Positions 21,901-26,182 of a stretch of DNA of 47,781 nt are shown piece by piece. This stretch comes from Deltaproteobacteria bacterium (GTDB lineage Bacteria > Desulfobacterota > Desulfobacteria > Desulfobacterales > Desulfosarcinaceae): positions 1 to 47,781 of the forward strand of contig JAHLLR010000001.1 in assembly GCA_020444075.1 (NCBI GenBank), written 5' to 3'. The notes below the pieces were generated by a model. That model was not told the origin of the DNA. It ran no database searches and saw nothing but the letters and a program-made list of their open reading frames with translations. The first letter of the stretch is position 1. Each line of letters opens with the position of its first letter. The translations under genes and the position numbers were made by a program.

Positions 21901-22089
21901 ACCGATTCCTCCTTTGTTGTTTTATGATTGCCTGCACATCGTTGCGGCAGGCGGATAAACCATCGAATTTAAAGATGTTAGCAGGTATTGGGGACACTTG
22001 CAACGCACGATATGGTTGAAACCGCATCTTTCCGGGGCTATAATGCGCCGAGTCGGCGGCGTGCCTTTGGGGCAATTGTTCGCAACACC

Positions 22090-24579
22090 ATGAAATTCAA
22101 ACTAAAAGATGCCGTGATCCCTGTCAAGCAAAATCAAATCATTCATCACCGGCAAATTGTTTCGGTGGCCGTGGCCCTTCCGGTCCATGGCACCTTCAGC
22201 TACAGCATCCCGGCGCATTTTGCCCCGCACGCCTGTCCGGGCAAGCGGGTGCTGGTCCCCTTTGGCAGGCGCACAGTCACCGGGTACCTGATCGGCCCGG
22301 CCCTGGAGACGGATCCTCTGGAAATCAAGCATATCCTGGATGTGCTCGACGACACGCCCCTTTTTCCGGCAACCATGATCCCGTTTTTCAAATGGATCGC
22401 CGCCTATTACATGCACCCCTTGGGACAGGTAATCAATACCGCCCTGCCGGCCGGGCTGAATCTTACCGACATCGCCATCCTGACCCTCGGCGAAGCTGGC
22501 GCGCAGGCCCTGGAGTCGTCACCCCTTTCGCCCCTGGAAGGAATCGTCCTGTCAGCGTTGGCCAAACGACCGGCCGGTATCAAGCAATTGCAGAAAGCGA
22601 TCGGTCAGCCCGTTTCATGGGCCTTGGTCCATCTGATGCGCCAGCGGGGATGGATTCAGGTGGATCGTCAGATCAAAGCCCGCCAGGTCCAGCCGAAAAC
22701 CATCCGGTGGGTGACTGTTCATGGGGTCGCACCCGTCTCCACCGGGATGTCTGTGCAGCGACAGAGCATTCGGACCATGTTGGAAACTGAAGGCGACCTG
22801 AGTATCCCGGCGCTGAAAGCACGCATCCCCACCGCCCCGCCACTGATCCGGGCGATGCAGAAATCCGGCCAGGTGGCCGTTTATGAAAGGACGGTCTACC
22901 GGGATCCGTTCGGCGACCCCATCGAACCGGATACACCGCCCCGGCTCACCGTCGAGCAGGCTGAAGCGGTAAGCACCATGGCTCCGATGCTCGGTAAAGG
23001 ATTCAAAACGGTTCTGCTGGCCGGGGTCACCGGCAGCGGAAAAACCGAAATCTACCTTCGCCTGACGCAGGCCGCCCTGGACAAGGGGCTTCGTGTGCTG
23101 GTGCTGGTACCGGAAATCGCCCTTATCTCCCAGACCGAACGCCGGTTCCGCGCCCGCTTCGGAGAAACGGTGGCGGTACTCCACAGCGGCCTGTCCCAGG
23201 GCGAACGCTATGACCAGTGGCTTCGCATTGCCAAAGCGGATGCGACCATTGCCATTGGCGCCCGGTCATGCATCTTCGCACCCTTTGGCGATGTCGGTTT
23301 GATCATTGTGGACGAGGAACACGACGCCTCCTACAAACAGGAAGGCGGACTGAGCTACAACGCCAGAGACCTGGCCGTAGTCCGGGCCCGTCACCACAAC
23401 GCCCTGGCCATCCTGGGATCGGCGACGCCTTCGGTGCAGTCCTGGTACAACGTCACCGTTGGCAAATACGAAACCGCCGGCCTGACCCGGCGGGTCAACC
23501 GACAACCCCTGCCGGCCATCCAGACCGTGGATCTTTCCCGGAGTCGTGACGACCGGGGCATTCGCCGCTACATCACCGCACCGCTTCAGCAGGCAATCCG
23601 GGAAACCCTGGACGATGGAAACCAGGCCCTTATTTTTCTCAATCGGCGGGGCTTTTCCGCCTTTCCCATCTGCGGGCGCTGCGGGCAGCCCATTCGATGT
23701 AAAAACTGTGATATTTCCCTGACCCTGCACAAACGGGCCAATGCCTTTCGCTGCCACTATTGCGGCTTTTCCAAAGCGGCCGCATCCACCTGCCCGTCCT
23801 GCGGCTCCGACAAAACCAGGCTGCTGGGCGTGGGAACCGAAAAAATCCAGGAGGCAATGAACCAGTTGTTTCCCGAGGCCCGCGTGGCACGCATGGATCG
23901 GGACACAATGACCCGCAAAGGCTCGATCGTCAGCCTGCTGAAAAATCTGAAGCACCGCCGGATCGACATCCTGGTGGGCACCCAGATGGTGGCCAAAGGA
24001 CACGATTTCCCGGGCATCACCCTGGTGGGGGTGATATGCGCCGACCTGACCCTGAATTTCCCGGACTTTCGCGCAGGGGAGCGGACTTTTCAGCTGCTCG
24101 CCCAGGTGGCGGGACGGGCGGGGCGGGGTGATCAGCCCGGCCGGGTAATCCTTCAGACGTATAACCCTGACCATTTCAGCATCCTTGCTGCAAAAGATCA
24201 GGATTTCAAGGCGTTTTTCAATCATGAAATCGGCTTTCGGAAAGCCCTGGGGTATCCGCCCTATGCCCGCATGATTGCCGTGCGCATATCCGGCAAGAAT
24301 CCTCAGCAAACCGCCGCCCATGCCAGGGCTCTGGGAGAAAACTGCCGGGAAATGCTGGCTGCGTGCGCATCGTTTCACGAACAGATTCACGTGATGGGCC
24401 CCATTGAAGCGCCGTTGTCCCGCATTGCCAACCACCACCGCTGGCAGATCCTGCTCAAAAGCACGGACACGGTCGAACTTCACCGGTTTGCCCATGAACT
24501 GATCCTGGGCCACCACGCCACATCCACCGGCCGGCACGTCAAGGTCACCGTTGACGTTGACCCGTTTTTTCTGATGTAA
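22090..24579 (+). CDS. priA: Primosomal protein N' (replication restart helicase PriA)
   Basis: PriA is a 3'-5' DNA helicase that reloads the replisome at stalled forks. Order: an N-terminal 3'-DNA-end-binding domain; a winged-helix segment; a helicase core with Walker A GVTGSGKTEIYL (about base 23025), DEEH box VDEEHD and a Walker-type C-half; a zinc-binding insert with eight Cys (CGRCGQPIRCKNC ... CHYCGF ... CPSCGS, bases 23670-23810); and the C-terminal domain to 24579. The start is uncertain. The ATG at 22090 gives about 829 residues; the frame is open back to 21988, but there is no clear ribosome site at either, and GTG codons near 22164 are also possible. The domains are complete. Confidence 0.94.
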   Translation: MKFKLKDAVIPVKQNQIIHHRQIVSVAVALPVHGTFSYSIPAHFAPHACPGKRVLVPFGRRTVTGYLIGPALETDPLEIKHILDVLDDTPLFPATMIPFFKWIAAYYMHPLGQVINTALPAGLNLTDIAILTLGEAGAQALESSPLSPLEGIVLSALAKRPAGIKQLQKAIGQPVSWALVHLMRQRGWIQVDRQIKARQVQPKTIRWVTVHGVAPVSTGMSVQRQSIRTMLETEGDLSIPALKARIPTAPPLIRAMQKSGQVAVYERTVYRDPFGDPIEPDTPPRLTVEQAEAVSTMAPMLGKGFKTVLLAGVTGSGKTEIYLRLTQAALDKGLRVLVLVPEIALISQTERRFRARFGETVAVLHSGLSQGERYDQWLRIAKADATIAIGARSCIFAPFGDVGLIIVDEEHDASYKQEGGLSYNARDLAVVRARHHNALAILGSATPSVQSWYNVTVGKYETAGLTRRVNRQPLPAIQTVDLSRSRDDRGIRRYITAPLQQAIRETLDDGNQALIFLNRRGFSAFPICGRCGQPIRCKNCDISLTLHKRANAFRCHYCGFSKAAASTCPSCGSDKTRLLGVGTEKIQEAMNQLFPEARVARMDRDTMTRKGSIVSLLKNLKHRRIDILVGTQMVAKGHDFPGITLVGVICADLTLNFPDFRAGERTFQLLAQVAGRAGRGDQPGRVILQTYNPDHFSILAAKDQDFKAFFNHEIGFRKALGYPPYARMIAVRISGKNPQQTAAHARALGENCREMLAACASFHEQIHVMGPIEAPLSRIANHHRWQILLKSTDTVELHRFAHELILGHHATSTGRHVKVTVDVDPFFLM

Positions 24580-24674
24580 CTTGACAGGATCAGCGCCGAA
24601 GCTTAAACATAGTGACTCGATCAATAGGAAGAAACGACGTTTATCCGCATATTTTCCAGCAAGGAGAACAACCC

Positions 24675-25478
24675 ATGAAATTCCGTATTCTTGCGATCAC
24701 AGCAATGGTTGTATTGCTGTGGGCCGCCGCAGCCATCGTCAGCGCGTCGGACCAGGCCGCCGGCAAGGATTCAACCACCCAGGCATCACCTGCCGTTGCA
24801 GCCGTCGAAAAGCCTGCTGCGGTGTTGCCCGAACTGAAATATGAGTTCGACCCGGTCGTGGACGGTACCCAGATCACCCATGACTTTGCGATCAAAAATA
24901 CCGGCGCCGGTCCCCTGTCCATAACCCAGGTCAAGACCGGCTGAGGGTGCTCGGTCGCCTCATACCCGAGGCAGATCCCCGCCGGCGGCGAGGGAACCAT
25001 CAGCATCAAGGTCAACACCAGCGGTTACGGCGGCAGGTCCCTGAAGAAGAACATCGATGTCTTCACCAACGACACGGCCAACACCCGGGTCACATTGAAC
25101 ATTACCGGGACGGTACTGAACTTTGCCCGAATGGACCCCGCCTATGCCCGTCTGGTCGGCCAGGCGGGAACCGATATTAAAAAAGCGATCACCATCACCC
25201 GCGAAAAGGCCTATCCATTCAAAATTCTCGAAGCAAAGGCCAGAAACGGAAACGATATCGCTTTTGATGTCCAGGAATTCAGCAAGGCCGATGAAGACGG
25301 TTATATCCTGACCATTGAAAACAAAAAAACGGATGCCGGGCGCTACGCGGACACGGTGATCCTGACCACGGACAGCGATATCAAGCCCACGATAATCATT
25401 CCGGTATACGGCCAGATCATTGCGGCGACACCTCCATCCGCGCCCACCCCGCCGAAAAAAAATGCCAGTGACGGGTAG
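24675..25478 (+). CDS. DUF1573 exported protein with in-frame TGA, probable selenoprotein (UGC motif)
   Basis: The protein is a predicted exported DUF1573 (Ig-like fold) product of 267 residues if TGA 24942-24944 is read through. The start at 24675 has AAGGAGAA upstream and a signal peptide (about residues 4-25). Residues about 55-90 (ELKYEFDPVVDGTQITHDFAIKN) are the family's first strand region. The TGA is codon 90 and reads QVKTG-TGA-GCSVASYP; the family has Cys here in a CGC motif, so selenocysteine is the simple explanation, giving U-G-C. After it the frame stays open for 178 codons and keeps the family pattern (IPAGGEGTISIKVNTSG, NITGTV). Short hairpins follow the TGA (see separate entry). 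The alternative is a Cys-to-stop mutation. Function of the family is unknown; a redox or metal role is a guess. Confidence 0.78.
24942..24973 (+). promoter_or_regulatory. Candidate selenocysteine codon and hairpin (SECIS-like)
   Basis: Right after TGA 24942-24944, TGCTCGG (24948-24954) can pair with CCGAG-G-CA (24966-24973, one bulged G). Alternatively GCCTC (24957-24961) pairs with GAGGC (24968-24972) around a 6-nt loop 17 nt past the TGA. Neither fully fits the known bacterial rule of a G in the first loop positions at the right distance, so support is moderate. Confidence 0.45.
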
Positions 25479-25561
25479 TCGGAAACAGCTATCGATACCA
25501 TCGAAAAGCATCGACACAGGTCTGCCGGTGCTTTTTAATTTCCTCGCAAGGAGAGTTGACA

Positions 25562-26182
25562 GTGAAGCGCCCTGTAAAGGTCGTTGCCTTCGACTGCGAC
25601 GGCGTCATGTTCGATTCCCAGGAAGCCAACCGGGCCTACTACAACCAGGTGCTTGACCATTGCCACCTGCCGGCCATGGTGCCGGAACAGATGGCCTATG
25701 TCCACATGCACACCGTCGATGAATCCCTGGCGTACCTGATCCGCGACAAGGCGACCCGCGACGCCGCCCAGGCTTACCGCAGACAGCTGGGATACCTGCC
25801 CTTTTTGAAATTCATGCGGATGGAACCGGGATTGGTGCCGTTGCTGGAAACGCTTCGCCCCCGCTTTAAAACGGCGGTGGCCACCAACCGCACCGACACC
25901 ATGGCCCGCGTGATGGCGGACCACCACATCGACCACCTCTTCGACCTGGTCGTCTGCGCTTTGGACGTTCAGTTTCCCAAACCGCACCCTGAAGCCCTGG
26001 TCAAGGTTATCGACCACTTTTCGGTTTCACCTGAAGAGGTGGTCTATGTGGGCGACTCGCCAGTGGATGAAACAGCGGCCAAGGCTGCCGGCATTCCCTT
26101 TGTGGCCTACCGCAACCGGGAACTGGCGGCCGACCACCACATCCGGCACCTGGCCGAGATTGCCGGTCTGCTGGGCCTGTAG
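25562..26182 (+). CDS. HAD-superfamily phosphatase (phosphoglycolate phosphatase-like)
   Basis: This 206-residue HAD hydrolase has all four motifs: motif I FDCDGVMFD with nucleophile and acid Asp (residues about 8-16), motif II ATNRTD, motif III Lys in FPKPHPE and motif IV VGDSPVDETAAKAAG. It fits the Gph/PGMB-like subfamily with a helical cap (about 17-85). The GTG at 25562 is used because AGGAG lies about eight bases upstream; a TTG at 25556 would be too close. The natural substrate is unknown. The next gene starts 21 bp later, so they are probably cotranscribed. Confidence 0.88.
   Translation: MKRPVKVVAFDCDGVMFDSQEANRAYYNQVLDHCHLPAMVPEQMAYVHMHTVDESLAYLIRDKATRDAAQAYRRQLGYLPFLKFMRMEPGLVPLLETLRPRFKTAVATNRTDTMARVMADHHIDHLFDLVVCALDVQFPKPHPEALVKVIDHFSVSPEEVVYVGDSPVDETAAKAAGIPFVAYRNRELAADHHIRHLAEIAGLLGL

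Follow-up and report, generated by a model that had tools for sequence, protein, structure and literature searches.

A conserved in-frame UGA in a DUF1573 protein of the OS_HP2 family: selenocysteine decoding and gene context in the Desulfobacterales

The locus described here poses the question of whether a gene carrying a single in-frame TGA is read through that codon as a selenoprotein, and what such a protein might do. The window, that is, the whole stretch of DNA analysed, comprises 47,781 nucleotides from a deltaproteobacterium of the Desulfosarcinaceae. The gene lies on the forward strand at 24675..25478, encodes 267 residues and ends in a TAG stop (25476-25478, + strand); it is defined by its translation, its matches to PF07610 and NF041425, and its homologues. 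By eye, a Shine-Dalgarno-like AAGGAG (24661..24666, + strand) lies 5' of the ATG at 24675, and a likely signal peptide (24675..24749, + strand) is indicated by a hydrophobic N-terminus, also read by eye, and by a helix at residues 4-19 of the structural model, its 3' limit being a guess. As the original prediction stated, translation of 24675-25478 finds only one internal stop, the TGA at codon 90 (24942..24944, + strand), in the context KTG-U-G-C-SVASY. The PF07610 (DUF1573) match of 70.5 bits (gathering cut-off 26.1) covers residues 54-147 and encloses the TGA, in agreement with the earlier claim of family resemblance on both sides of the stop.

Whether selenocysteine-containing DUF1573 proteins had been described was left open by the original prediction. 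They have been. The NCBIfam model NF041425, "OS_HP2 family (seleno)protein", matches residues 52-147 with 146.2 bits (cut-off 100), and the U90-G91-C92 motif lies in the DUF1573 domain, as it does in NF041425. In its passages on this family, PMC2398784 (2008) gives OS_HP2 (pfam07610) as a UxC selenoprotein; in its corresponding passages PMC9312934 (2022), citing Zhang and Gladyshev 2007, gives a DUF1573 selenoprotein with a UGC motif, as does PMC13188914 (2026). The window gene is one more member of a selenoprotein family catalogued by 2008. The listing in PMC2398784 also contains an arsenite S-adenosylmethyltransferase selenoprotein, and DUF1573 is mentioned once in a Bacteroidetes iron study. 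Our literature search found no published function for OS_HP2, searches of open-access literature found no report of an association between OS_HP2 and arsenic, and the terms arsen, MauE and OS_HP are absent from the main text of PMC8318568. With the selenoprotein family itself already catalogued, it is the gene context that is added here.

The distribution of the TGA among relatives was examined in 60 genomes, consisting of the window's own genome and 59 relatives. The search returned 75 matching places in 56 of the 60 genomes and no family match in G007, G009, G031 and G036. We extracted 71 of the 75 places, counting the window gene; the remaining rows were two of G027, one of G029 (later read as L168) and a short one of G003. 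The motif codon is TGA in 56 of the 71 loci and Cys in 14, while L074 has no motif. The 56 Sec loci fall in 52 of the 60 genomes, four of which hold two, and G038 and G040 hold Cys copies only. In the alignment, C-G-C stands in Cys relatives at the place of U-G-C, so the TGA corresponds to Cys in the Cys forms and to a TGA in the Sec relatives, as had been expected. Desulfosarcina widdelii and D. alkanivorans each have an orthologue. Both Cys92 (TGC, 24948..24950, + strand) and the motif U/C-G-C as a whole are invariant in the 48-row alignment A1. Among the 14 Cys loci, the motif is altered in L070 (CNC), L073 (CSC) and L072 (CCG), and two more, L075 and L076, are remote, with 22-24% identity. 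Across the phylum, at least 146 of 395 genomes match the family profile at E 1e-20; among the loci examined from these 146 (L088-L117 and the fetched neighbourhood regions), Sec forms occur outside the order as well, for example in L095, L099, L104, L109, L115 and L117. In family f32, OS_HP2 copies lie next to each other (L105/L106), as Sec and Cys in G095 and as Sec and Sec in G444, which suggests a fairly recent switch between Sec and Cys. G242 (89% complete) and G289 (78%) each carry one TGA and have no tRNA-Sec among the matches listed.

Several readings of the TGA other than selenocysteine were weighed against these data. A nonsense mutation, a pseudogene or an assembly error at codon 90 would fit the fact that there is a single stop only, and the original prediction had named a TGA confined to this strain as the finding that would speak for a nonsense mutation. 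The same TGA is instead present in 56 loci of 52 genomes, and purifying selection continues downstream of it. Comparisons with same-genus relatives give dN/dS values near 0.2 on either side of the TGA: 0.10-0.27 in codons 47-89, before the TGA, in five comparisons (a sixth could not be computed because dS was saturated), and 0.18-0.29 in codons 94-267, after the TGA, in six of six. The shared TGA and the dN/dS values 3' of it refute a pseudogene or a sequencing error, to which we assign a negligible probability. Equally small is the chance that TGA is a general sense codon, such as Trp, in this organism, since the genome's own paralogue (L010) and several same-genus orthologues use TGA as their stop codon. 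That general reassignment is refuted, and no evidence in its support was found; the motif codon is TGA or Cys in those extracted loci that have a motif, and a tRNA-Sec with a TCA anticodon is present. Translation might also restart 3' of the TGA. The original prediction held that no start follows it, which was wrong: in-frame start-type codons occur at 25095 (TTG), 25131 (ATG) and 25356 (GTG), and a 127-aa ORF is called from 25095. Although these candidate codons exist, homology runs unbroken through the TGA, and an internal restart is unnecessary because of that homology together with the RNA hairpin described below.

A selenocysteine reading calls up the genes selA, selB, selC and selD, whose absence the original prediction had regarded as decisive against it. 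All four are present above their cut-offs. The tRNA-Sec gene (selC) lies at G000:C148:23176-23267, has the anticodon TCA and scores 50.6 bits (cut-off 47), being the only one of the nine tRNA-Sec matches listed for this genome to exceed the cut-off; selB follows directly (295.9 bits; cut-off 242.25). The selA gene is on contig C67 (607.9 bits; cut-off 267.9) and selD on C88 (371.5 bits; cut-off 125). In 14 control genomes, matches over the cut-off were seen for tRNA-Sec in 5, selA in 1 and selD in 2, with weaker, sub-cut-off sel matches in further control genomes. Across the 395 genomes of the phylum, tRNA-Sec is matched at E 1e-7 in at least 367 and above the cut-off in at least 355. The best places listed in the phylum score about 74-86 bits, compared with 50.6 for the window's genome, and by E-value the tRNA-Sec of some other genomes, for example G032, G063 and G150, is as weak as this one. 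The genome's SelD (L179, G000:C88:25157-26083) has one TGA inside its frame and may itself be a selenoprotein.

Bacterial selenocysteine insertion is directed by a hairpin, and the original prediction had called for a SECIS search immediately 3' of the TGA. We found a SECIS-like hairpin at 24957..24972 (+ strand), with arms at 24957-24961 and 24968-24972 and a 6-nt loop, ATACCC, at 24962-24967. Counted from the TGA, positions +13 to +17 pair with +24 to +28 without gaps, the first base of the loop being at +18. Across 56 Sec genes 90.7% of cells are standard pairs, as against 41.4% across 14 Cys genes, and C-G to U-A changes covary at +14/+27 and +15/+26. When codons were exchanged between sequences sharing the amino acid at a position, a shuffle in which relatedness is not preserved, pairing averaged 83.7% versus an observed 92.6% in 54 Sec genes (the 56 minus L033 and L068), and none of 5000 shuffles reached the observed value. 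Because this shuffle ignores relatedness, all 1035 possible five-pair helices were scored in the same way with 400 shuffles each. By pairing, the hairpin comes out top of the 1035; by z, only the helix shifted from it by one step scores higher. The ranking is the same in a thinned set of 35 genes from which 19 more close relatives had been removed. The z of the hairpin is 9.9 in the 54 genes and 7.9 in the thinned 35, where the 99th percentiles of all helices are 5.0 and 3.7.

Taken by itself, the window sequence has no unusual folding stability (z -0.5 to -1.5 in four stretches), and Rfam gave no match over the hairpin; the element is visible only by cross-species comparison. Bacterial SECIS elements usually have a G at one of the first two apical-loop positions. 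Only 13 of the 54 Sec genes have a G in these positions, the loops being mostly Y-U-A-Y-M-C, and the window gene, with AUACCC, does not. The expectation of a SECIS element was borne out as to a conserved, covarying hairpin 3' of the TGA, but its loop departs from the usual G rule. A possible second helix lies at 24976-24994 of the window (+32..+36 with +46..+50), with z 5.9 across the 54 genes; among the best eight helices of the thinned set it appears only through its overlapping registers +33/+49 and +34/+48, with z 3.9. Judging from the comparisons of sequence, the UGA at codon 90 is almost certainly read as selenocysteine by SelB and tRNA-Sec under the direction of the first hairpin.

To consider what the product may look like, we modelled it with AlphaFold2 on alignment A1, with Sec entered as Cys (mean pLDDT 90.7, pTM 0.72). 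Strands 81-88 and 92-96 flank U90 in the model, and the strand order reads as two predicted Ig-like beta domains, with U90-G-C92 placed at a turn between strands of the first. The best Foldseek matches are chains of the ciliary central apparatus, together with 2qsv. In the best 50 rows, query TM-scores are 0.22-0.42 with large rmsd; because of these low scores and large deviations, the matches speak for a kind of fold rather than for close kinship. No thioredoxin fold was recognised, the model consisting of two beta domains with Ig-like matches, and since the fold is Ig-like rather than thioredoxin-like, no catalytic precedent carries over to this protein.

Gene neighbourhoods were compared in 60 regions, the window and L045 by mapping fourteen query genes with tblastn. 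In the window the gene lies between priA (21988..24579, + strand; Pfam PriA domains) and a gene for a HAD-family hydrolase (25556..26182, + strand; Pfam HAD_2), both conserved as neighbours in many genomes across the order. In context 1 the HAD gene adjoins the OS_HP2 copy; this is the arrangement of 36 of the first 40 regions, of L174 among the other 20, and of the window. Of those first 40 regions, 28 also have priA, as does the window; the window copy is part of a conserved priA-OS_HP2-HAD locus. At the 38 places of context 1 (37 regions and the window), the redox and arsenic queries gave a single match, a rhodanese in L150 at a distance of about 5 kb. In 16 of the 60 regions (L128, L147, L155, L157-L168 and L176; context 2), Sec copies stand by redox or arsenic genes. 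Genes for thioredoxin, CcdA/DsbD, rhodanese, MauE or a DsbA-like protein, one or more of them, occur in 15 of these 16, the queries having come from L128, L155 and L157, which therefore match by construction; L167 has ArsP and ArsR only. By type, the 16 regions include MauE in 12, rhodanese in 12, thioredoxin-type genes in 11, CcdA in 9 and DsbA-like genes in 4. ACR3, ArsP or ArsM is present in 11, or in 13 if ArsR-type regulators alone are counted. Pfam names were obtained for ten context-2 genes. The other seven regions (L169-L173, L175 and L177) belong to neither context; rhodanese alone is present in L172 and L173 and was not counted.

The manner in which the context-2 regions were chosen bears on these counts. 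L158-L165 were selected for the S-S form of the motif shared with the first context-2 copies, before their neighbours had been viewed, and each of the eight carries one or more redox genes (a single one in L158 and L163). L166 and L167 were chosen for kinship with other context-2 genomes. The L161 and L162 proteins are nearly identical and hardly independent, and several contigs are short. A plasmid search with one context-2 protein gave no match. A pattern search for ArsM with an in-frame TGA found one candidate Sec-ArsM site each in L128, L158, L165 and L166, and none in L161 and L162.

The phylogeny of the domain was reconstructed from 129 rows, of which 97 remained once contained duplicates and rows lacking a motif had been removed. 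The tree has 94 inner branches, 37 of them unresolved; bootstrap values had not yet stabilised, and long branches drew a warning from the program. Thirteen of the 16 context-2 rows form one clade (99/97), and L036, L083 and L085 lie elsewhere. The tree requires three changes of the context-2 label, of which well-supported branches force only one; repeated entry into context 2 may have occurred. Nine of 17 Cys rows form a further clade (99/94), and among them is the paralogue in the window's own genome. In that genome only the window Sec gene and this one Cys paralogue (G000:C148:20071-20700) were matched, with no second Sec copy. The Sec gene and its Cys paralogue, side by side in one genome, offer a natural set for comparing Sec with Cys. 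The paralogue (L045 6066-6803) lies about 2.5 kb from selC-selB (selC at L045 9177-9268), and between it and selC there is a gene resembling HmcF/TmcB/DsrK, below cut-offs. Located 3' of selB, L045 11354-12554 partly matches, below cut-off, the BT_3928 family and the rhodanese selenoprotein TsoB, and tblastn marks a MauE-like stretch at L045 11549-11833.

What, then, might the selenocysteine do? A redox motif on an exported protein, as first proposed, is plausible. Our best explanation as a whole, which we consider probable, is that OS_HP2 is decoded with Sec, is exported as an Ig-like protein and serves in periplasmic selenol/thiol exchange. By this mechanism, SelB and tRNA-Sec, guided by the hairpin, would decode the UGA; the product would be exported, to judge by eye from its N-terminus, and would fold into two Ig-like beta domains; U90 and C92 would form a selenenylsulfide or selenol-thiol couple; and this couple would act as a partner in thiol-disulfide exchange in the periplasm, receiving electrons through a CcdA/thioredoxin-type path. 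On its own, the last step, a U90/C92 exchange partner fed by such a path, has in our estimate an even chance of being right. A redox-partner role is proposed because related Sec copies adjoin genes for thioredoxin, CcdA/DsbD, rhodanese, MauE and DsbA-like proteins, often with arsenic genes; the window copy has no redox neighbours, and therefore the redox reading reaches it by homology only. More tentatively, and at somewhat less than even odds, OS_HP2 selenoproteins may be the selenol part of a periplasmic thiol-redox module, a distinct clade of these proteins having been recruited to metalloid-resistance islands (ArsP, ArsM, ACR3), where U-G-C might reduce, exchange or capture trivalent arsenicals or shield periplasmic thiols, with a Sec hairpin whose loop lacks the usual G.

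Two other functions compete with thiol exchange. Selenocysteine may be inserted while U90 and C92 constitute a ligand site for a soft metal or metalloid, for example trivalent arsenic, copper or mercury, in a protein that buffers or delivers ions in the periplasm. The arsenic genes of context 2 (ACR3, ArsP or ArsM in 11 of 16 regions, 13 with ArsR-type regulators alone) fit such a site, as does a gene between rhodanese and MauE in L160 (3514-4618) and L161 (5526-6635) that, by eye, resembles a cation diffusion facilitator. However, 15 of the same 16 regions carry thioredoxin, CcdA, rhodanese, MauE or DsbA-like genes, with which thiol exchange fits better, and no arsenic-gene query matched beside the window copy; we hold a ligand site to be unlikely. 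The Foldseek matches to the ciliary central apparatus and a further Pfam match of the protein, HYDIN_VesB_CFA65-like, would suit a structural Ig-like (ASH/HYDIN-type) adhesion or scaffold protein to whose role Sec and Cys would be incidental. An invariant U/C-G-C in 48 rows and a Sec codon kept in 52 of 60 genomes are more than a scaffold requires, and this reading is improbable. Periplasmic selenol/thiol exchange, perhaps in metalloid stress, is the testable role to which the gene context leads.

Compared with known systems, the window gene shares with OS_HP2 and NF041425 the pfam07610 domain and the U-G-C motif, and no difference was found in the gene itself. The passages on this family in PMC2398784, PMC9312934 and PMC13188914 mention neither the neighbourhoods nor an arsenic-linked clade. 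The Cys forms of PF07610 have the same domain but a Cys codon, most of the 14 loci having CGC in place of UGC, and they show only slight pairing at the hairpin (41% of cells). Among solved structures, 2qsv, a Porphyromonas gingivalis protein of unknown function in which no Sec is noted, is the only chain with a profile E-value under 0.001 (1.3e-4; Foldseek E 2.1e-8). The closest parallel for the hairpin is the SECIS element of E. coli fdhF, in which 17 nt separate the UGA from a 6-nt apical loop (AGGUCU) with a closing C-G pair. RNAfold of fdhF alone gives a 4-nt loop, with one A-U pair formed inside the 6-nt loop. The two hairpins are alike in that the apical loop starts 18 nt after the UGA, the fdhF sequence having been confirmed, and they differ in that fdhF has a G in loop position 2, whereas OS_HP2 loops are mostly Y-U-A-Y-M-C.
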